From positions 310,001 to 374,000 of the forward strand of contig NZ_VAWF01000002.1 in the NCBI RefSeq assembly GCF_005869845.1: a stretch of DNA of 64,000 bases, given 5' to 3'. This document shows positions 35,317 to 47,106 of the stretch, piece after piece. Each line of letters opens with the position of its first letter. The first letter of the stretch is position 1. This DNA is from Fodinibius saliphilus (GTDB lineage Bacteria > Bacteroidota > Rhodothermia > Balneolales > Balneolaceae). Made by a program: the position numbers and the translations under genes. Below the pieces are notes generated by a model. That model had not been told where the DNA came from. It did not search any database and saw only the letters and a list, made by a program, of their open reading frames with translations.

Positions 35317-36270
35317 ATGGGTTTTTTAGAAAAGATTGGTCTCAAGAAAAAAGAGAAAGTAGAAAAGGGCGTTGAAAAAAGTCGCTCCGGTATCATGAAA
35401 AAAATTGGTAAGGCTATTGCCGGTAAAGATACCGTAGATGCCGCTGTACTCGATGAGCTAGAAGAGATTCTTATCACCTCAGATGTAGGTGTTAAAACAA
35501 CACTCGAAATTATCGACCGCATCGAAAAACGTGTAGCTGAAGATAAATACCTCAATAGTGATGAACTACAGCGTATTTTGCGTGAAGAAATTATTGGCTT
35601 ACTCAAAGATCATTCTGCCGATAAACCAGCTGAGTTTGATGCAGAATTTCCACAAAAACCCCATATCGTAATGGTTGTTGGCGTTAATGGCGTTGGCAAA
35701 ACAACCTCTATCGGTAAACTTGCCTATCTCTATAAAAAAGCGGGCAAAACTGTTATGCTTGGTGCCGCAGATACCTTTAGAGCTGCAGCTGTAGACCAAC
35801 TCAAAGTTTGGAGTGAGCGTGCAGGAGTCCCTATCATCCAACAGGGACAAAACGCGGATCCCGCCGCTGTCGCCTACGATACGGTTGAATCAACTAAAGC
35901 CAAAGGTGCTGATATTGCTTTAGTTGATACGGCCGGACGCCTACATAACAAAAAGTCCTTAATGGAAGAACTTGCCAAAATAAAACGTGTTATGGGCAAA
36001 GTTGTTGATGGCGCTCCCCATGAAGTACTTCTTGTTCTTGATGCCTCTACCGGACAAAATGCCATGCAACAAGCCAAAGCATTCACCGACTTTGTTGATA
36101 TCACCGGCTTGGTACTTACCAAGCTTGATGGCACGGCAAAGGGTGGTATTGTTATTGGGATCTCTAACGAGCTGAATGTGCCGGTAAAATATATAGGAGT
36201 GGGAGAAGAAATTGAAGACCTGCAAGTCTTTGATCGTGAACTATTTGTAAATTCGATGTTTAAGGATTAA
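35317..36270 (+). CDS. ftsY: Signal recognition particle receptor FtsY
   Basis: A 317-residue SRP GTPase: short basic N-terminal A region (KKKEKVEKG), N domain (about 25-100), then the G domain with GVNGVGKTTS (P-loop), DTFRAAAVDQL, DTAGRLHNK and TKLDGTAKGG, and the C-terminal FDRELFVNSMF. It docks ribosome-SRP complexes to the translocon at the inner membrane. The acidic A domain of E. coli FtsY is absent, as in many bacteria. Essential housekeeping gene. Confidence 0.96.
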   Translation: MGFLEKIGLKKKEKVEKGVEKSRSGIMKKIGKAIAGKDTVDAAVLDELEEILITSDVGVKTTLEIIDRIEKRVAEDKYLNSDELQRILREEIIGLLKDHSADKPAEFDAEFPQKPHIVMVVGVNGVGKTTSIGKLAYLYKKAGKTVMLGAADTFRAAAVDQLKVWSERAGVPIIQQGQNADPAAVAYDTVESTKAKGADIALVDTAGRLHNKKSLMEELAKIKRVMGKVVDGAPHEVLLVLDASTGQNAMQQAKAFTDFVDITGLVLTKLDGTAKGGIVIGISNELNVPVKYIGVGEEIEDLQVFDRELFVNSMFKD

Positions 36271-36381: not shown

Positions 36382-39300
36382 TTGGGTTACAGGGCTCTTT
36401 GCAAGCTACTACAATCTATAACTTCGATTGTATTACTTTTTTTATGGTTTCCGACCTGTGGTTGGGCACAACCGAACGGATTACAGGCCCTTCATAAAGC
36501 AGATTCACTGTCTCATGCTGCGCATTACGATTCGGCAAACTACTATTATAAAAAAGCTGTTCCCCTTTTTGAGAAAGAACAACAGTGGAATAAAAAGGCT
36601 TCTGCCCTCTATGCAATTAGCAATAATAAAAGCATTCAAGGCAATCTGGATAAAGCAGAAGAATACCTAAACAAAGCCCGAGCTGTTACCGAACAATACT
36701 TCACCCAAGACCATATCTTGAATGTTCAATACTTATACCTAAAAGCGCAGATTGCAGTAAATAAAGCTAATTACGACACGGCATTAACATATTATCAGCA
36801 AGCCACTGATGTTGTAAGCTCCGTAAACTCTGACAAGCGCTTGGTATGCCAAATTAAAATACTTGCTGGTATAGGAGAAACGTATACCGTAAAAGGTAAA
36901 TATGACTTAGCAATACAGAAGCTTGATCGGGCCGAGGCATTATATCATCAATTCCAGCTGAATAATCCAAGAGTATTAAGTCGTATTTATAACAGTCATG
37001 GCACGGTATATAAAAAGCAAGGGAACTATAACAGATCTCTTGAACACTATCTTACATCTTTACAAATAGATCGTAAAACGCTACCGGACCAACATCCGGA
37101 ATTGGCAAAATCATATAATAATATTGCCATAATCTATTACTATCAAAGTGATTATAAGCGTGCTTTAGACCATATGAAAAGTGCTGTTAGGGTGTTAACC
37201 GGTTTTCATGGTCGCAATCATTGGCTTGTTGCTCGCGGGTATAACAATATCGGTATTGTTTATTCCGAAATGGGGGAACTTGCAAAAGCAACGGAATATC
37301 TTAAAAAAACGCTAAGCGTCAGAAAAAACATTTTAGGAAAAGATCATCCCGAAATTGCCATTGGGTATCAGAACCTGGGGGCCATATTTTATGATCGGAA
37401 CAAATATGAACAGGCCATTGAGAATTATAAAAAAGCACAAGACATACATCTTAAGCACTTCCCGGAAGGACATCCTGAGCTGGCTAATGTGTACGCCAAC
37501 CTGGGCCAGGCTTATGATAAAAAAGGCAATTATAAGAAAGCACTTAATTTCTACCATAAAGATCTTGATATAAACCTTGATCTCTTAAGTAAAAACCATC
37601 CTTTTATTGGAGATACCTATTCCAAGATTGGAAAGACGTACGCTCACATTAATAACTTTGAACAAGCCTTACAATACTTTGAACGTGCTATTTCTATTTT
37701 TGTATCCAATTACAACAAAGAAATTGATATCGGAGAAGTGGTATTGAAAGATGTGTTATACCCCGCTAAACTCTTAGAGGTATTGCAGCTCAAAGGCCAG
37801 ACTATTAAACAACAAGCTGCTAAATCAGCTGATTATCGATCACTGCTAGACCAATCGTTACAAACCTATTTACAGACCGTTCAGCTTATCAATAAGCTAC
37901 AAAAGTCTTACAACCGAGAAGAATCTAAGTTTTTACTCCGAGAACGAACCTCAGTAATTTACAACGAAGGATTTCAAACCGCCTTTCAGCTTTATCAAGA
38001 AACTGGAAATCCCGACTACAAAAAATATGCATTCTATTTCGCAACACAGAGCCAAAGTCAAATTCTGCTGGAACAGATGCAAAAAGATGCGGCACAAAAG
38101 TTTGCAAATATTCCAGACTCACTTATTGCGCGAGAAACTAACCTTCGTAACAAGTTAACAACTTTACAACAGCAGCTTTCAAGTTTAGCTCAGACCCCTA
38201 AACAGACAGATTCTACCAAACAGCTGGCCCTGAAAGACTCCCTTTTCCACCTCCAAAAAACCTTGAGCAGTCATAACCAAACACTGGAGGAAACCTATCC
38301 CAAGTATTATCGCCTTAAATACCAGCCGCTTGTTACCAAGGTTTCCGAAATCCAGAATAAATTTCTGACACCGCAAGAAACAGTTATTCAATATTATTTT
38401 AGTAGCCAAAATTTGTATGCATTTACAATAACCAACTCTACTTTTCAACTCTGGGAAGTTAGTACAGATTCTCTGCTGACAAATAAAGTAAACGCATACC
38501 GCAAGGTACTCACGGAGGATTCTTCAGTATCAGATTTTAGGTCTGGAAGTTATTCCCTTTATCAGCAGCTTATAGAACCTATTAAAGAGGGGATTGATGG
38601 AAATAAGCTTCTCATCATTCCGGATGGAACGTTGCATTATCTGCCCTTTGAAAGCCTGGTAACCGACCCACAAAAGAACCAGAACCCTATACGCTTTTAT
38701 GAACTTCCCTATCTTATTCATGATTATACGGTCAGCTATATGACCTCGGCCAATTATTTTGAGCTGTATCATCAAGAGCAAACCGGCAAATCCGCACCAT
38801 CTAAGGAGTTTCTCGCCTTTGCTCCTGTTTTCTCTGAAATATCAACAGCTGAAAAAAGAGATTTATATCCGGGATATAACCGGCCATTACCTTCTTTACC
38901 GCTCAGCAAACAAGAAGTGCACAAAGTGGAAGAATTAATGAGTTATTCCAGCGGCTTTTGGCCTTTTCGGGATAAAAAAGAAAGTACCATCTTTGTTAAA
39001 GAGGAAGCCACAGAAGAAAATTTTAAAAACCTTCCCCTTAAAGATTATCGTTATATACATTTAGCTACCCATGCTTATGTTTCTGAAGAAAACCCTCACC
39101 AGTCAGGTATTCTATTTAGTGTTAGCCCGGAAGAACCGAAAGGTGGCATATTACATGCTTCTGAGATCTATAACCTTTCACTAAATGCTGAACTTGTTAC
39201 TTTGAGTGCCTGCAAGACGGGGGTGGGAGAAATGGCAAAAGGAGAAGGAATAATAAGTCTGAGCAGAGCATTTCAATATGCGGGTGCTAGAAATCTCCTT

Positions 39301-39480
39301 GTCTCATTATGGAATGTGAATGACCGAGCAACTTCTCGTCTTATGATCAAGTTCTATGAACAATATCAAAATGAAGAATCTATTTCTCTGGCATTACAAC
39401 GAGGCAAAAAAGAGATCATAACAAAGAGACGATATGCTCATCCTAAATATTGGGCTCCCTTTATTTTTATTGGCCAATAA
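36382..39480 (+). CDS. Secreted TPR-CHAT protein (caspase-like peptidase), copy 1
   Basis: A 1032-residue protein starting at TTG (the only in-frame standard start before the signal peptide; cleavage near CGWAQ). Residues about 40-470 are TPR units of the Kinesin-light-chain type, followed by a helical linker and a C-terminal CHAT domain with the caspase-like dyad H897 (LATHA) and C944 (SACKTG) and the conserved ending ARNLLVSLWNVND...WAPFIFIGQ. The dyad is intact, so it may be an active cysteine protease in the periplasm. A paralogue follows 299 bp downstream. Confidence 0.85.
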   Translation: MGYRALCKLLQSITSIVLLFLWFPTCGWAQPNGLQALHKADSLSHAAHYDSANYYYKKAVPLFEKEQQWNKKASALYAISNNKSIQGNLDKAEEYLNKARAVTEQYFTQDHILNVQYLYLKAQIAVNKANYDTALTYYQQATDVVSSVNSDKRLVCQIKILAGIGETYTVKGKYDLAIQKLDRAEALYHQFQLNNPRVLSRIYNSHGTVYKKQGNYNRSLEHYLTSLQIDRKTLPDQHPELAKSYNNIAIIYYYQSDYKRALDHMKSAVRVLTGFHGRNHWLVARGYNNIGIVYSEMGELAKATEYLKKTLSVRKNILGKDHPEIAIGYQNLGAIFYDRNKYEQAIENYKKAQDIHLKHFPEGHPELANVYANLGQAYDKKGNYKKALNFYHKDLDINLDLLSKNHPFIGDTYSKIGKTYAHINNFEQALQYFERAISIFVSNYNKEIDIGEVVLKDVLYPAKLLEVLQLKGQTIKQQAAKSADYRSLLDQSLQTYLQTVQLINKLQKSYNREESKFLLRERTSVIYNEGFQTAFQLYQETGNPDYKKYAFYFATQSQSQILLEQMQKDAAQKFANIPDSLIARETNLRNKLTTLQQQLSSLAQTPKQTDSTKQLALKDSLFHLQKTLSSHNQTLEETYPKYYRLKYQPLVTKVSEIQNKFLTPQETVIQYYFSSQNLYAFTITNSTFQLWEVSTDSLLTNKVNAYRKVLTEDSSVSDFRSGSYSLYQQLIEPIKEGIDGNKLLIIPDGTLHYLPFESLVTDPQKNQNPIRFYELPYLIHDYTVSYMTSANYFELYHQEQTGKSAPSKEFLAFAPVFSEISTAEKRDLYPGYNRPLPSLPLSKQEVHKVEELMSYSSGFWPFRDKKESTIFVKEEATEENFKNLPLKDYRYIHLATHAYVSEENPHQSGILFSVSPEEPKGGILHASEIYNLSLNAELVTLSACKTGVGEMAKGEGIISLSRAFQYAGARNLLVSLWNVNDRATSRLMIKFYEQYQNEESISLALQRGKKEIITKRRYAHPKYWAPFIFIGQ

Positions 39481-39511
39481 AAAAAGGCCCCATACTGTAT
39501 CATGCGGCCTT
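39479..39511 (-). terminator. Intrinsic terminator of the 31-codon minus-strand ORF
   Basis: Read leftward, AAGGCC (39511-39506) pairs with GGCCTT (39489-39484), with further CAT/ATG pairing inside, and is followed by seven T. It overlaps the stop codon of the TPR-CHAT gene on the other strand. Confidence 0.7.
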
Positions 39512-39530
39512 CGAAATTTTAGTTAAAATA

Positions 39531-39626
39531 CTACGTAGCCGTCGTACTATCATCATCGTCAGCTGTTGAGCCATCGTCCTGATCCGGCATTGCTAAAGCT
39601 AATTGCTCTTCGTTGAAATCAAACAT
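39531..39626 (-). CDS. 31-residue acidic small protein between two TPR-CHAT genes
   Basis: ATG at 39626, stop TAG at 39531. An AGGAG lies 7 bases before the ATG, unusually strong in a region where most genes lack one, and an intrinsic terminator lies 20 bp past the stop. The product starts MFDFNEEQLALAMPDQ and ends with a cluster of Asp, Ser and Thr (DDDDSTTAT). It is not secreted by any signal visible. Possible roles: a partner or substrate of the flanking CHAT proteins, or a RiPP-like precursor; neither is shown. No gene-sized modification enzyme is adjacent. Confidence 0.5.
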   Translation of the reverse strand: MFDFNEEQLALAMPDQDDGSTADDDDSTTAT

Positions 39627-39778
39627 AATGATCTCCTGATCTTTTTTGAAAATTAAATGCATTGCGCTCTCTTTATGAAGACGCATAAAAATATGATATA
39701 ATTTGTCCCCAATGACAAACTTTTTAACTTATAACAACAAGCTTTTTACAAAAATCTGATACTGCTTATTACAACGGG

Positions 39779-42712
39779 ATGCATATAAGACGGCTACTTA
39801 TTATCGGGGGTATTGTACTGACAATAATTCCCTGTGCAGCTAGTGGGCAAAGCCTCCAGCTGGCAGACTCTCTCTATCAAGAAGGCAAACAGTACGACAA
39901 AAGGGGACAAGAAAAAAAGTCTGAATTCTACTACCGAGAAGCCTACCATATCTACAGCAATTTCCAAGATACTGCTTCTTTTTTAAAGGCAGGAAAAGAA
40001 TATGCCAGCGCCATGATGTGGCTATCAAAACATGAGGAGGCCTTGGCACTTTATCGGAAACTGCTCGATATCAATCATCCTGCCAACGATGCCTATAACC
40101 GGGGCGATATCTATAATAGTATGGGCTTATCTAATAAAAGGATTGGAAAATTAAATCAAGCCCTCGATTACTATAATAAATCACTTGAATTAGCGAAACA
40201 GTCAGAAGATGCCTTTCTCATTGGGGTTGTATACAGTAATCTGGGGTTGGTTTATAAAACAAAAGGAAATTATACCAAGGCCATGGACTTTTACAAGAAG
40301 TCACTGCCTTATTTTAAGCGCATAGATCGCTCAAAAAATGTGGCTATTACCCTTGGCAATATTGGAAATATTTACAAAGACTTAGCCCTTTATGAGCAGG
40401 CCCTGGAGTTCTTTAACCGGAGCCTGAAGATAATCCAACAAATAGGGGACGTCCGGCAGTTGGCAAATTCATATAGCCTTATAGGAAGTATACAACGGAA
40501 ACGTGGCAACTATGACCAGGCACTGGTTTCTTTTAAAAAAAGCCTAGAATTCAGCCAAAAAGCAGGAACTCCGGGACAGATCTCCAGCGCCCTAAACAAC
40601 ATAGGCTTACTTTATAAACAGTTGGGAGAGTTTGAAAAAGCACTCAGCTATTATCAACAAAGTCTTGCTATTGCCCAAAAAACGGCTGGTCCTTTACAAA
40701 TTGCAAGCAGAGTTAATAATCTTGGACAACTGCTTTGGCAGCAGGGTAAACATCAGCAGGCAAGCGACTATTTTACTAGAGCTTACAAGCTTCGTAAGAA
40801 GGGAGGAAACCCTCATGCTATTTACAGTTCCCTCATTACGATGTGGAAGAACAGCTTCCAAATAAATGATTTTGAGACAGCAAAACACTTTGCCAACCAG
40901 CTTAAAACAATAGGGGATTCGACCGACAGCTACAAAATGCTACTCAAATCTTCTGAGTTATTGGGGCGAATAGAACAAAAAAAAGGGAACGTACAGTCAG
41001 CCCTTACCCATTTTAAAAAAGCATATGCCTACAGCGAGTTTCTGCCTTCAAGTAAGCAACTGAGTGCTGCCAAAAACCTAGGTCGTCTTTATCACAAGCT
41101 GAACTCTGACAGTGCTATAACCTATGGTAAAAAAGCTATTACACTCATTGAAAAACATCGTTCAAATGCCGGTGCTGTCTCAGAACTTAAGTCGGGATAC
41201 TTTGGGCAACACTCCGGTTTCTATACCGAAGTAGCCTCCTGGATTCTAACCTATTCACAAGATCCGGAAGAAGCGTACCAACTGGTAGAGCAAGCCAAGG
41301 CTCGATCATTGAGTGATCAACTGGTGCACGCTTCAGAAAACATTGACAGCCAGTTACCAAAAGAGGTACGTATTAAACGCAGAAAAAAACGTCGTCACAT
41401 TGAAGAGCTCTATTCAACGTTAGAACAAACGGTAGACAAAGAAGAACAAGCTAATATTGAACAAAAAATTCATTCAGCAGAACTTAACTATGCGGCTTAC
41501 GAAAATAAATTACATGAGGAGTATCCTGAATTGAAAGCCCTGCGATCTCCGGAACCCATTTCGTTGCGTCGTGCCCAGACACTGACTGATGAACAAACGG
41601 CGGTACTTGAATATGCACTTGCCGGCAATCAGCTTATTGCCTTTTTAATCAGTTCAGATAATGTTCATGTAGAACAGGTGTCCTTATCCGGAAGCCGACC
41701 ATTAGACGAGCAGCTCACTGACTTAGTAGCAGATTTTAAAGGCAGTATTTTATCAAATGCTCCCCGGGCCCAATTGCGAAACCAATCAACAAAACTGTAC
41801 AACACCTTAATAAAACCTTTTGAGGATGAGCTTGAGCAGTTTTCAAACCTTGTTATTGTACCTGATGGCGCTCTGGCCTACCTTTCCTTTGAGGCTCTTT
41901 CACGTGGAAATCAGTATCTTATTGAAGATTTTAGCATTAAGTATGAACCTTCGCTAACCAGCCTAAGTCTGCTTGAAGATTCTGATAACCTTAAGCGACA
42001 AGACCTGTTGGCCGTTGCAGGGTCAAATATTTCCAATGAAAATGCAAATAACACAAGCTTCAGACAAAGCAACCTTTCTGCGCTGCCTTCAACCCTGATG
42101 GAAATTGATTCTATTGCAACACAATTTTCAGAAACGGCTATTCTTAAAGAAAATGAAGTTTCCGAAGAACGCTTCAAAAAGATGCTTCAGCAGGACCAGT
42201 ATCGCTATATCCATATGGCGACGCACGGTATTATTGACGAAGATCGACCGAGCAGAAGCGGCCTGGCTTTATCCTCAGAAGGGGAACTAACCGCTTCCTC
42301 AAAAGAAGATGGAATGTTACGCAGTTCAGAAATATTTGGCCTTGATATTCAATCTGACATGGTGGTTTTAAGCGCCTGCAATACCGGCCTTGGAAAAGTA
42401 GTGAAAGGAGAGGGCATGCTGGGCATGCAGCGTTCGTTCTTCTATGCGGGTGCCTCAACGGTAGTGGTAAGTCTCTGGAATGTCTACGACCGCTCAACAG
42501 CTTCTTTTATGACTGAATTTTATAAAGCCCTTAAAAACACACCCTCGGATGAAGGCTGGACCGATAGCATGCTCCGCTGGATTGGTTGGAATGAATCTAT
42601 CCCATTTGGCCATAAAGCGAAAGCTATGCGGAAAGCAAAGCTAAAGATGATTAAACACCCCTTGTTTAACCATCCGGTGTATTGGGCACCTTTTGTAGTA
42701 GTAGGTCGTTAG
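39779..42712 (+). CDS. Secreted TPR-CHAT protein (caspase-like peptidase), copy 2
   Basis: A 977-residue paralogue of the previous TPR-CHAT protein: signal peptide (cleavage near AASGQ), eight to ten TPR units (about 25-450; NRGDIYNSMGLSNKRIGKL, ALDYYNKSLELAK), a charged helical linker, and the C-terminal CHAT domain with H816 (MATHG) and C867 (SACNTG), ending WAPFVVVGR. The dyad is intact. The pair likely arose by duplication, but the two are diverged. They have the same strand and are separated only by the antisense small ORF. Confidence 0.85.
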   Translation: MHIRRLLIIGGIVLTIIPCAASGQSLQLADSLYQEGKQYDKRGQEKKSEFYYREAYHIYSNFQDTASFLKAGKEYASAMMWLSKHEEALALYRKLLDINHPANDAYNRGDIYNSMGLSNKRIGKLNQALDYYNKSLELAKQSEDAFLIGVVYSNLGLVYKTKGNYTKAMDFYKKSLPYFKRIDRSKNVAITLGNIGNIYKDLALYEQALEFFNRSLKIIQQIGDVRQLANSYSLIGSIQRKRGNYDQALVSFKKSLEFSQKAGTPGQISSALNNIGLLYKQLGEFEKALSYYQQSLAIAQKTAGPLQIASRVNNLGQLLWQQGKHQQASDYFTRAYKLRKKGGNPHAIYSSLITMWKNSFQINDFETAKHFANQLKTIGDSTDSYKMLLKSSELLGRIEQKKGNVQSALTHFKKAYAYSEFLPSSKQLSAAKNLGRLYHKLNSDSAITYGKKAITLIEKHRSNAGAVSELKSGYFGQHSGFYTEVASWILTYSQDPEEAYQLVEQAKARSLSDQLVHASENIDSQLPKEVRIKRRKKRRHIEELYSTLEQTVDKEEQANIEQKIHSAELNYAAYENKLHEEYPELKALRSPEPISLRRAQTLTDEQTAVLEYALAGNQLIAFLISSDNVHVEQVSLSGSRPLDEQLTDLVADFKGSILSNAPRAQLRNQSTKLYNTLIKPFEDELEQFSNLVIVPDGALAYLSFEALSRGNQYLIEDFSIKYEPSLTSLSLLEDSDNLKRQDLLAVAGSNISNENANNTSFRQSNLSALPSTLMEIDSIATQFSETAILKENEVSEERFKKMLQQDQYRYIHMATHGIIDEDRPSRSGLALSSEGELTASSKEDGMLRSSEIFGLDIQSDMVVLSACNTGLGKVVKGEGMLGMQRSFFYAGASTVVVSLWNVYDRSTASFMTEFYKALKNTPSDEGWTDSMLRWIGWNESIPFGHKAKAMRKAKLKMIKHPLFNHPVYWAPFVVVGR

Positions 42713-43007: not shown

Positions 43008-44720
43008 TTAATTATCATCCCCTGTAATCTCTATAAATTCCTGGTTATCTACTTTTGGGGCTTCGTCAGTGTTCGCAATTGTTACCGTAGAGCCATAAAT
43101 GGTACGAACAATATTAGCAAGTTTTTCAAAGCGTATTTTATGCACCTCATCAGATGGTCGATGATAATCTTCATGAACTCCGGTAAAGAAGAAAGCAAAG
43201 GGTACTCCTTTGCGTCCAAAATGCCAATGGTCACTGCGTCGATAAAACTGGTTCGGATCTTGCAGATCATTATACCGGTCACTTAGCGCAATATTGGCAG
43301 TTCGCCTATTCCCAGCATGAATTAAGCTGTCAAGTTGCGAAGAGATAATATCGCCCCCGATAATATAGCTATAGTTTTCAACCCCCTCTTTTTTATGCTT
43401 TTTATCAATACGGCCAATCATATCGATATTAATATTGGCCACTGTCTGATCCATAGGAATTACCGGGTGATCGGAATAATATCGGGATCCCAACAGTCCT
43501 TTCTCTTCTGCCGATACATTTAGAAAAAGTATACTCCGCTTGGGCTTCACCCTGTCTTCTCCGGCCTTTGCAAAAGCCCGTGCCACATTAAGTAACCCTA
43601 TGGTTCCACTTCCATCATCATCAGCCCCATTATAAATACGATCTCCGGTAGAATCAGCGGCCCCAACCCCAACATGGTCGTAATGTGACGTAAGTACGAC
43701 TATCTCTTCTTTCAGTTCAGGATCAACACCTTCGTAAAAAGCTAATACATTTCTCGAAATAACTTCTTTTTCTGATGAATAAGGAATATGGTCAAGCTGA
43801 TAATTCAATTCGCGGGGCTGAAAATCTGTAATGTTTTCAATAGTCTCTTGCCTATATGCTGCAAGCTCTGTTTCAGATTCCAGGCCAAGCACCTTCACAG
43901 CGACTGAAGGCTTTATAATATTATACCCTTTACTAAAACCGCCAGAAGACTCTTCATCCCGATAAGCAAGGCTCAGCCGGCCAACTTTTCCATAATTAGC
44001 TTGCATTTTCTGGGCTCTCTCCTCGAATTCTTCAGAGTTTGCTGCCGGAATAATGAGCATACCCTTTGCGTCTTGCCCCATAATCGTTTGAAAACGGGAA
44101 CGACTATCAATGGCTGCATCTATCAGCGTGTCGCCATCCACTACATTCGGAATCTCTTCAAATACCATAACCCATTTGTCTTTCAACGTAATATCCTTGA
44201 GATGTTGAACACCAAAAGAATCATCGTTAACTCCAAATCCTGCAAACACAATATCTGCCTTCAGGGTATCTGTTCCTCCAAAACGACGAATAAAATGTGC
44301 TTTAGAATCTTTACCGGCAGTAGACCTGTCAACAAGCTCCTTTTGATTATTTTGGGTATTATAGAGATTAAAAACTACGCTATCGCTCTTTGCTTCTGCC
44401 AGTTTAAAGTTCTGGAAATAAGTATTGTTATCGCCCGCCGGTTCCAGCCCAATCTGTTGGTACTCTTCAGCAAGATAATCAGCTGCCTTTTTCTCTGCAG
44501 GGGTCCCCGCTTCGCGACCTTTCATTGAATCAGCAGCAAATATTGTTAAATGCTTTTTTAAATAGGATACAGATATTTCATCTTGGTATTCTATAAGTGC
44601 CTCACTACTGGTATTGGGCGCCTCTGTAGATGGGTTTTCTTCTATAGAGGATTGGGAGGCCGTGCAGCCAGAAAATAGGATAGCCAATACCAGGGATAGT
44701 ACGATGGTTCTTGCATTCAT
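43008..44720 (-). CDS. M28-family zinc aminopeptidase, lipoprotein
   Basis: A 570-residue secreted lipoprotein: lipobox LFSGC with C19, a PA-type insert in the middle, and an M28 peptidase domain with all expected zinc and catalytic residues: SHYDHVG, NGADDDGSGT, SAEEKGLLGS (Glu-Glu), NIDMIGR and GVHEDYHRPSDE. It would trim N-terminal residues from peptides outside the cytoplasm. It belongs to a set of four secreted peptidases and peptidase-like proteins in this window, suggesting a protein-degrading lifestyle. It starts 22 bp after the scpA stop on the same strand. Confidence 0.9.
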   Translation of the reverse strand: MNARTIVLSLVLAILFSGCTASQSSIEENPSTEAPNTSSEALIEYQDEISVSYLKKHLTIFAADSMKGREAGTPAEKKAADYLAEEYQQIGLEPAGDNNTYFQNFKLAEAKSDSVVFNLYNTQNNQKELVDRSTAGKDSKAHFIRRFGGTDTLKADIVFAGFGVNDDSFGVQHLKDITLKDKWVMVFEEIPNVVDGDTLIDAAIDSRSRFQTIMGQDAKGMLIIPAANSEEFEERAQKMQANYGKVGRLSLAYRDEESSGGFSKGYNIIKPSVAVKVLGLESETELAAYRQETIENITDFQPRELNYQLDHIPYSSEKEVISRNVLAFYEGVDPELKEEIVVLTSHYDHVGVGAADSTGDRIYNGADDDGSGTIGLLNVARAFAKAGEDRVKPKRSILFLNVSAEEKGLLGSRYYSDHPVIPMDQTVANINIDMIGRIDKKHKKEGVENYSYIIGGDIISSQLDSLIHAGNRRTANIALSDRYNDLQDPNQFYRRSDHWHFGRKGVPFAFFFTGVHEDYHRPSDEVHKIRFEKLANIVRTIYGSTVTIANTDEAPKVDNQEFIEITGDDN

Positions 44721-45639: not shown

Positions 45640-46185
45640 ATGGACTATTCTGACTTAGTAAATGCACTGCAAGAGAACGACACGAAAAAAGCGAATGAGC
45701 TCATTACAGCTCTTCGCCCTCGCCTTATTGCTTTTTTACGCATTCATATGAATGCTACACAAGCAGATGCTGAAGATTGTGCTCAAGATGCGCTCTTAAA
45801 TTCTATTGAAATCATCAACGAAGACCGAATTGAAAAACCCGAACAGGTTGTTTCTTATATTCTTTCTACCTGTAGAAATACATACCTGAAGATGCAAAAG
45901 AAGAAACGTCCGGAAGCTGTTGAAGATATTTCCACAAGAAACCAACAAGACCCGCGTCAACTCCAGTCATTGCTGGATAAAGAACAGAAGAGGTTACTTA
46001 AGTTGTGTATGGAACAACTAAAGGAAAAATACCAGACATTCATGCAGTATTGGTTTGACCACCCCGATGCCCAGGCAAAAAAAGTAGCAAACCACTTTGA
46101 TATCAGTGTGAGTAATACCTGGACTCGTAAACATCGTATCATTAAAAAGTTAAATGAGTGCTATACCAAAAAAAGCAAATTATAA
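45640..46185 (+). CDS. ECF-type RNA polymerase sigma factor
   Basis: A 181-residue sigma-70-family protein with region 2 (about 22-90, AEDCAQDALLNSIEII and SYILSTCRNTYLKMQKK) and region 4 (about 125-175, LKEKYQTFMQYWFDHPDAQAKKVANHFDISVSNTWTRKHRI in landmarks ANHFDISVSNTWTRKHRI). The next gene encodes a single-pass membrane TPR protein, a likely regulator. A two-hairpin segment separates them. ECF factors of this type pair with CHAT genes in related genomes; the two CHAT genes 3 kb away are possible targets, but no promoter match is seen. Confidence 0.87.
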   Translation: MDYSDLVNALQENDTKKANELITALRPRLIAFLRIHMNATQADAEDCAQDALLNSIEIINEDRIEKPEQVVSYILSTCRNTYLKMQKKKRPEAVEDISTRNQQDPRQLQSLLDKEQKRLLKLCMEQLKEKYQTFMQYWFDHPDAQAKKVANHFDISVSNTWTRKHRIIKKLNECYTKKSKL

Positions 46186-46204
46186 TGTAAGGATTTGACT
46201 TCCC

Positions 46205-46254
46205 GAGGGTCTTACCTAACAGACCCTTGACACTAAATTGCTTATAAAGCAATT
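46205..46254 (+). promoter_or_regulatory. Two hairpins between sigma factor and partner gene
   Basis: AGGGTCT (46206-46212) pairs with AGACCCT (46221-46227) and, 9 bp later, AATTGCTT (46236-46243) with AAGCAATT (46247-46254). The second ends 25 bp before the partner start. Neither is followed by a T-run, so an attenuator or mRNA-processing structure is more likely than a terminator. Confidence 0.4.
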
Positions 46255-46278
46255 CAAGCGCGAAATAAACCTTTTTTC

Positions 46279-47106
46279 ATGAACAATATTTCAAGAGACA
46301 TAGAACTGGAAAAGCAAATAGATGCCTATGTAAAAGGAAAGCTCACTGAAGAGCAGGTAGAAGCCTTATGGGAAAAACTTCTGTTGCGTCCAGACTATAT
46401 TAAACTGTTAGAAACTGAATTAGGTGTACAATCGATTCTAGAAGAAACCTCTTCTGATGATGAGAGCTCAACGGAAGTAAATGACAAAGATACCATTTAT
46501 TCCTTCAAGCAATCATGGAAGTGGATTGCTGCTGCAGCCTCAGTTGCAATTTTAGTGGTAGCTATTAATTTTTTGCAACAGGATACGAGTCAATCAATCC
46601 AAGAGATGGCTTTAAAGAATATAGATGTTTCTACAAATATTTCTTCTGCTCCTGTTCTGCGATCACAAAAAGCCACTATCGCTCCAGCCGATTCACTATT
46701 AAATCGAGGATTTCAAGCAACAATTTCCGGTAATGTAAAAGAAGCAATGCAATTCTATGAGAAAATTATCACCCAGTATCCTGATGAAACAGCTGCTGTA
46801 AAAGCTTATCTCAACAAGGGTATTATTCAATACAATTCCGGAGAATTTAAGTCTTCAATCAGTTCCTTTGTGGAAGTTGTCGAAAATGTAGAGGAAAATC
46901 CGGTTACCGAAGAGAAAGCATATTGGTATATGGGCAATGCCTATATCAATTTGGAGAAACTTTCAAAAGCGCGAGAAGCTATTCATACCGCTTATTCTAT
47001 GGATGGGATCTATCGAAAACCGGCCTACCGTATCTTGCGAAAACTGGACCATGAGCTTGGCAATGTCGATTTCGATGATTTTGACCAGCAAATGAAAGAA
47101 GGATAA
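46279..47106 (+). CDS. Membrane-anchored TPR protein, candidate anti-sigma factor
   Basis: A 275-residue single-pass membrane protein: an N-terminal cytoplasmic domain (about 1-85) with a hydrophilic helical start, a membrane helix (about 90-108, WIAAAASVAILVVAINFL), and a periplasmic part with TPR-like repeats (about 150-260). Located 93 bp after the ECF sigma gene on the same strand, it is a probable regulator that holds the sigma factor at the membrane. There is no zinc-binding HxxxCxxC motif, so it is not a ZAS-type anti-sigma. Confidence 0.65.
   Translation: MNNISRDIELEKQIDAYVKGKLTEEQVEALWEKLLLRPDYIKLLETELGVQSILEETSSDDESSTEVNDKDTIYSFKQSWKWIAAAASVAILVVAINFLQQDTSQSIQEMALKNIDVSTNISSAPVLRSQKATIAPADSLLNRGFQATISGNVKEAMQFYEKIITQYPDETAAVKAYLNKGIIQYNSGEFKSSISSFVEVVENVEENPVTEEKAYWYMGNAYINLEKLSKAREAIHTAYSMDGIYRKPAYRILRKLDHELGNVDFDDFDQQMKEG

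Follow-up and report, generated by a model that had tools for sequence, protein, structure and literature searches.

CHAT proteases are widespread in bacteria, but apart from the CRISPR-linked Craspase and a few other cases we know of none whose natural partner has been identified. A developmental role is fulfilled by HetF of heterocystous cyanobacteria, a CHAT-domain protein that is likened to the protein described here by description only and for which we know of no tiny adjacent partner. Short peptides encoded beside a large TPR protein are characteristic of the FxSxx-COOH/HaaA cyclophane RiPP systems. With respect to Craspase (type III-E CRISPR), a passage of PMC11106740 reports for its orthologs that the cut site in the client Csx30 is not conserved. 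The criteria for RRNPP systems, e.g., Rap-Phr and NprR-NprX, are given in a part of PMC10075063 as a TPR receptor of 250 to 500 aa, an adjacent small peptide gene, and a secretion signal, and some RRNPP peptides are described there as using an exporter other than Sec.

The current study deals with a gene for a 31-aa peptide and the neighboring gene for the 977-aa TPR-CHAT protease CHAT2, located in a window of 64,000 nucleotides (the whole stretch of DNA that was analyzed) from Fodinibius saliphilus. As in Craspase, where Csx29 is the protease, CHAT2 is a TPR-CHAT protease of apparently the same fold, and a candidate dedicated partner is recognizable here by linkage only; in contrast to Craspase, CHAT2 has a signal-like N-terminus, the partner comprises only 27 to 49 aa, and the two genes are divergent. 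Neither Cas7-11 (gRAMP) nor any other Cas protein was found among the 20 ORFs between 24.5 and 53.0 kb of the window that were searched against Pfam (among them CHAT1 and CHAT2; two ORFs without a match, a few smaller ORFs left out), and no CRISPR array was indicated by direct repeats of at least 22 bases within 120 bases between 24 and 56 kb. By analogy, the peptide and CHAT2 may resemble the protease-client half of Craspase. The RRNPP systems share with this locus the small peptide gene adjoining that of a TPR protein, and the CHAT2 solenoid resembles NprR and RapF, but CHAT2 exceeds the receptor size, contains a protease domain, and carries the signal-like N-terminus itself, whereas a Sec signal is missing from the peptide. 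The NCBIfam TPR models of the FxSxx-COOH/HaaA systems match the CHAT2 solenoid weakly and far below their cut-offs (71.8 of 1125 bits for HaaT and 45 of 300 bits for FxSxx), and in contrast to these systems no radical-SAM enzyme is present among the 20 ORFs near CHAT2. A pairing of a TPR-CHAT protein with a small peptide was not found described in the open-access literature, subscription journals and preprints being outside the scope of the search.

The peptide gene and its conservation

The minus-strand ORF encodes the sequence MFDFNEEQLALAMPDQDDGSTADDDDSTTAT, followed by a stop codon; it converges on CHAT1, the gene of a second TPR-CHAT protein, and is divergent from and head-to-head with CHAT2, the two start codons being separated by 152 bp (Table 1). 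A first-pass annotation had described a 31-codon ORF antisense between two TPR-CHAT genes, which was borne out by the plus-strand orientation and the Pfam CHAT matches of both neighbors. It had also noted an AGGAG motif 7 bases from the ATG, of which the motif but not the spacing was confirmed, and a terminator 20 bp past the stop, close to where a terminator-like hairpin with a T-run does begin.

Table 1. Features of the peptide-CHAT2 locus (positions in the window)
Feature	Position	Strand	Remarks
ftsY, left anchor	35317..36270	+	Pfam SRP54; present in 19/20 wider loci
CHAT1, second TPR-CHAT gene, converging on that of the peptide	36382..39480	+	Pfam CHAT 9.1e-64
Intrinsic-terminator-like hairpin and T-run, peptide transcript	39477..39512	-	starts ~18 nt past the stop
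Putative partner peptide gene, 31 aa	39531..39626	-	N-terminal segment, PDQD motif, acidic Ser/Thr tail
Shine-Dalgarno AGGAG, inside leader ATCAGGAGATCATT	39633..39637	-	6 nt between AGGAG and ATG
Probable promoter of the peptide gene	39687..39727	-	TTAAAAAGTTTG block 39727-39716; AT-rich block 39700-39687
CHAT2, TPR-CHAT protease, 977 aa, signal-like N-terminus, presumed His816/Cys867 dyad	39779..42712	+	Pfam CHAT 6.6e-66
M28 peptidase, right anchor	43008..44720	-	Pfam Peptidase_M28; present in 18/20 wider loci

The list of ORFs contains a 51-aa form that starts from an upstream ATG, but the homology of the peptides begins at the ATG 3' of the Shine-Dalgarno sequence. Ahead of this start, ATCAGGAG is present in 10 of the 12 genomes of the genus (not in G001 and G011) and additionally in G021. 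The TTAAAAAGTTTG block, the AT-rich block, and the Shine-Dalgarno sequence are kept in an alignment of the divergent intergenic region from 9 of the 12 genomes of the genus, and the former two blocks probably represent the promoter of the peptide gene. Downstream, the 60 nt past the stop fold with -16.1 kcal/mol, and the hairpin is absent from the list given by a simple terminator scan; a hairpin before a T-run was found 3' of the peptide gene in 34 of 41 genomes versus 2.65 expected from mononucleotide shuffles. Together with the promoter-like block and the kept Shine-Dalgarno sequence, this points to a separate transcription unit for the peptide.

Orthologs of CHAT2 are present, one each, in 41 of 92 genomes of the Balneolaceae (E below 1e-100), e.g., with 79% identity in Fodinibius halophilus. 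A DNA search in 58 related genomes resulted in matches from several genomes of the genus that overlap the peptide ORF, and reading of these loci revealed the same peptide with a common leader. A seven-member profile detected the peptide at the CHAT2 site in 10 of the 12 genomes of the genus and, outside it, in a single further genus, while in the two remaining genomes it is present and beyond the reach of the profile through divergence. In 128 genomes of the order, the profile search yielded 11 matches at the CHAT2 site; of a further 22 weaker matches, five loci were read (L028, L033, L034, L035, and L043); a 33-aa ORF with the motif MPDPDP, lying antisense within a 320-aa ORF at L043, was judged to be a chance match.

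Independent of the profile, a strict filter was used that accepts ATG ORFs of 24 to 60 aa located at most 700 bp upstream of CHAT2, the last 22 residues of which consist of at least 60% D/E/G/S/T and include at least four acidic ones. It recognized an antisense ORF at 30 of 39 CHAT2 loci and a sense ORF at none of the 39, and 0.06% of dinucleotide shuffles contained one, so that the occurrence greatly exceeds chance; at the other nine loci, an ORF of this kind was accepted by eye under a looser rule. In the last two CHAT2 genomes it was found with a relaxed filter (G075) or by eye where the relaxed filter had missed it (G059), and by strict rules, looser rules, or eye, an antisense upstream ORF of the peptide kind accompanies all 41 CHAT2 orthologs. 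Since the strict filter missed nine loci and the relaxed one missed G059, the filters are not fully sensitive, and negative counts obtained with them are no proof of absence. The start codons of the peptide gene and CHAT2 are separated by a median of 85 bp (25 to 587 bp in 41 genomes, starts partly estimated).

The 41 peptides have a length of 27 to 49 aa, are free of Cys in 40 cases, and share a layout in which a short N-terminus is usually followed by P-D (35/41; P-D or P-G, 38/41) and then by a D/G/S/T/P-rich tail, which outside the genus is richer in Pro and Gly. The peptide is probably disordered and acidic. The first-pass annotation had made its proposal dependent on a reading frame kept in close relatives, and the frame is conserved. 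Pooled Nei-Gojobori pN/pS values of the peptide were 0.36 (2 genomes), 0.41 (4), 0.47 (6), 0.45 (4), and 0.45 (6), the 0.47 group containing the 0.36 and 0.41 groups and pairs inside a group not being independent. The comparison of codons indicates that the peptide frames are under purifying selection and that the peptide evolves faster than CHAT2, whose values are 0.17 to 0.31 in four nearly matching groups. The ORF is almost certainly a real gene, and it is presumably translated.

It is extremely improbable that the ORF acts as a regulatory leader or the unit as a small RNA, with a conserved frame that would be incidental, even if the Shine-Dalgarno leader is strongly conserved in the genus and the short unit has its own terminator-like hairpin. 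Selection acts at the amino acid level in five groups, composition and frame are kept across genera despite very different peptides, no Rfam match was found for positions 39300 to 40000 up to an E value of 1, and a divergent unit would be unable to attenuate CHAT2 in cis. A small RNA was rejected on the basis of the Rfam result and the selection on amino acids.

Linkage of the peptide to CHAT2

In CHAT2-less genomes of the family, 20 of 51 of which were examined downstream of ftsY with the relaxed filter, the peptide was found in none, some of the loci being short (678 bases past ftsY in L236). The only filter match (L235) corresponded to the end of scpA and was discarded. M28 or scpA follows ftsY within about 160 bp in 11 of the 20 loci, and in four of them (L225, L238, L239, and L241) another CHAT gene is located after ftsY without the peptide, as is also the case directly after ftsY in the order-level loci L113 and L118. 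A divergent upstream peptide was likewise recognized by the relaxed filter at none of 38 other TPR-CHAT loci, mostly of the CHAT1 type or from other families, among which L106 has a candidate truncated at an assembly gap and L133 offers hardly any upstream sequence. In 70 of the 77 loci of a genome collection, the same filter gave six upstream antisense matches, four of which represent Balneolaceae CHAT2; the fifth (L194) was judged spurious, the sixth (L202) carries a double-glycine (GG) leader, and L153 and L157 were missed. Two observations were left out of the counts. A possible start of a leaderless peptide, MKKAKYPNFLFIRGNHADPDTEE, lies between ftsY and the CHAT gene of a Rhodothermaceae bin (G053; L106/L157) and is interrupted by a run of N, and a 39-aa acidic ORF of similar composition, MKMNDLHYHAMLQLNPNGHDELKEEDSGDEGTEPGEKDD, lies on the opposite strand 3' of a CHAT gene at L108 (G124).

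CHAT1 was considered as the partner and discarded, since the peptide is retained in genomes lacking CHAT1 and since, according to the relaxed filter, loci of the CHAT1 type in the sister genus are without such a peptide. Of the 41 CHAT2 genomes, no more than nine show a second CHAT match (E ≤ 1e-30), a CHAT1 homolog beside the CHAT2 gene was seen only at L076 among the 20 wider loci, and for CHAT1 no tiny partner of its own was found. The constant partner of the peptide is the downstream CHAT2, and CHAT1 is not obligate. Since the peptide accompanies CHAT2 in 41 of 41 genomes and was detected in none of the 20 CHAT2-less ones, the two behave as one module, and the peptide is very probably a functional partner of CHAT2, whatever its role. 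The tie of the short gene to a TPR-CHAT protease, which the first-pass annotation had proposed by analogy to Craspase, is corroborated by all 41 CHAT2 loci.

Tiny neighbors of other TPR-CHAT genes

The genome, which is 98.7% complete, contains three CHAT genes at E ≤ 1e-10. The third one, CHAT3, is conserved in the Balneolaceae, and in front of it the same strand carries genes for two near-identical small proteins of 65 aa that possess a lipobox and an acidic tail (L293:1818-2258; G000:C1). Among 29 of 30 CHAT3 loci fetched (L294-L323), one to five tandem copies of such lipoproteins are present in 20 and at least two copies in 13, with chance antisense or unrelated ORFs uncounted (L296, L298, L299, L308, and L318) and L305 left out owing to an internal stop. 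The lipoproteins have a length of 59 to 86 aa, the copies are near-identical, and those of the genus end like M..I.DKPE. In the other 9 of 29 loci the upstream sequence comprises at most 408 bp, and in at least three of them (G010, G005, and G077) the contig starts right there. Draft contigs that start just upstream of CHAT3 were observed at L296, L297, L298, and L314; we infer that these breaks are consistent with near-identical tandem repeats. No Pfam or NCBIfam match was obtained for two scanned lipoproteins, and no PADLOC match for one.

Peptides of another type are encoded beside TPR-CHAT genes outside the Balneolaceae. In Marinifilum, the TPR-CHAT gene is divergent from four to five tandem genes for near-identical 30-aa GG-leader peptides and one diverged copy (L182:1907-2669 and L203:2070-2668). 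At least one GG-leader peptide is encoded divergently from the TPR-CHAT gene of Labilibaculum (L207:50-151 and L213:3-104), the two Labilibaculum peptides exceeding the NCBIfam bacteriocin-leader cut-off, and one is located in the same orientation in "Bacteroides sp. SM23_62" (L202:1799-1921). Most other TPR-CHATs that were checked showed no tiny neighbor.

The first-pass annotation had raised a crosslinked peptide precursor. The GG leaders bear on the possibility that the peptide of F. saliphilus is the precursor of a RiPP, e.g., of an ester- or amide-crosslinked one, with CHAT2 as the maturation protease, and the tail of Asp and Ser/Thr residues would suit such a precursor. In agreement with the remark of the same annotation that no modifying enzyme is adjacent, however, no ATP-grasp, lanthionine, radical-SAM, or YcaO enzyme was present among the 20 ORFs scanned, and the four of the 41 peptides that were scanned had no match to NCBIfam (including its RiPP leader models) or Pfam up to an E value of 10. 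The Pro/Gly-rich tails of other genera and the lack of Cys in nearly all peptides also argue against it, and a RiPP precursor was rejected as highly unlikely on the grounds that the ORFs and peptides scanned yielded neither a modification enzyme nor a leader match. In a word search, the main text of a graspetide survey (PMC8939145) contained neither CHAT nor caspase.

The exported, caspase-like TPR-CHATs might include a class of extracytoplasmic proteolytic signaling systems, in which the gene of a protease adjoins that of a miniature partner which the protease cuts or senses; we regard this reading as plausible rather than probable. Within that class, the partner would vary by lineage and paralog, i.e., a leaderless acidic peptide for CHAT2, tandem lipoproteins for CHAT3, and GG-leader peptides in Marinifilum. 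The CHAT3 lipoproteins and the Marinifilum arrays suggest a wider rule, with the proviso that such a neighbor was not seen for most other TPR-CHATs checked.

The CHAT2 protein and the role of the peptide

The CHAT domain of CHAT2 (PF12770) scored 223 bits versus a curated cut-off of 24, and His816 and Cys867, which we take to be the catalytic dyad, occur without exception in the 39 orthologs compared. A role in anti-phage defense was considered and set aside; PADLOC matched CHAT2 to TPR models and weakly to BovA (19.9 bits), and the peptide to nothing. The AlphaFold2 model of CHAT2 (pLDDT 81, pTM 0.73) had separase as its best Foldseek match and was superimposed on Csx29 (7y9x_B) with a Z score of 26.9 and an rmsd of 8.5 over 573 residues (model range 220 to 977), which indicates a Csx29/separase-like fold of the modeled protein. 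A hydrophobic N-terminal segment is found in 39 of 39 CHAT2 proteins, based on an 11-residue hydrophobicity measure and not on a dedicated signal predictor, versus 1 of 41 peptides (G001). CHAT2 thus probably works outside the cytoplasm, and there is good support for the peptide being a partner dedicated to an exported protease. What the data demonstrate is a pair of genes and not a biochemical reaction.

As the best explanation overall, which we favor tentatively, the ORF encodes a translated tiny acidic peptide that is a client of CHAT2. Peptide and CHAT2 would form a divergently transcribed two-gene module, in which the N-terminal 10 to 15 residues of the dedicated client might dock on the TPR/CHAT protein; CHAT2 would cut near the P-D boundary, and cleavage would free the acidic tail or the N-terminal fragment, either of which would then serve as signal or effector. 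A substrate of CHAT2 is our preferred role for the peptide, held with less than even confidence. It is consistent with the intact dyad and the Csx29-like fold of CHAT2 and with the tandem copies at CHAT3 and in Marinifilum, which would suit clients or signals better than inhibitors, and the absence of a conserved cut site has its analogy in the Craspase orthologs, which likewise cut a dedicated client. Against it stand that no cleavage site is legible in the alignment apart from the frequent P-D or P-G, that the CHAT genes following ftsY at L113, L118, and in 4 of the 20 CHAT2-less loci have no peptide, and that no tiny partner was seen for CHAT1. Moreover, CHAT2 has the signal segment and 40 of 41 peptides have none, so that for the presumed interaction and cleavage the leaderless peptide would have to reach the exported enzyme by some other route.

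The lack of a signal peptide would be the very point if the peptide were a cytoplasmic safety inhibitor or folding guard that blocks those CHAT2 molecules which fold before export and so prevents their premature activity. Staphostatins are comparable inhibitors of staphopains. The distribution of the hydrophobic segment, the co-inheritance with CHAT2, and the acidic tail and variable sequence, which would suit a co-evolving pseudo-substrate, all agree with such an inhibitor, but the tiny neighbors at CHAT3 (lipoproteins) and in Marinifilum (GG leader) are of an exported type, and arrays of copies would be ill suited to it. On this evidence, an inhibitor is unlikely but deserves serious attention.

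The structural matches of the solenoid point to a further role, in which the exported peptide or a fragment binds the TPR solenoid as an activating ligand or cell-cell signal and turns the protease on, similar to what is known for the peptide-binding TPR receptors Rap and NprR. The solenoid matches NprR (Z score, 28.1; rmsd, 5.6; 341 residues) and RapF with peptide (Z score, 25.3; rmsd, 7.1; 341 residues), both also by sequence, and adjacent genes with a faster-evolving peptide would be compatible with a ligand. TPRs of many functions also match, however, such as LGN (Z score, 28.4; likewise peptide-binding), O-GlcNAc transferase, and kinesin light chain; the topology would be reversed, the signal-like segment being on the receptor and not on the peptide, and no conserved short mature signal is visible at the peptide C-terminus. 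An activating ligand is accordingly rather improbable.

For the preferred client as for any other role, the gene pair has been kept through much of the family and the partner is short enough to be synthesized, which makes the targets of non-CRISPR TPR-CHATs directly testable. Gene callers often skip ORFs of 27 to 49 aa, and since the homologs fall into this size range, such partners could escape annotation.

Sigma factor-like ORFs were noticed by eye beyond the TPR-CHAT gene and peptide array of Marinifilum and also adjoining TPR-CHAT genes of Bacteroidales. In the window, a protein with a weak sigma-70 region 2 match and a TPR protein are encoded at 45640-47106, and homologs of these occur in the vicinity of CHAT2 at many of the 20 wider loci.
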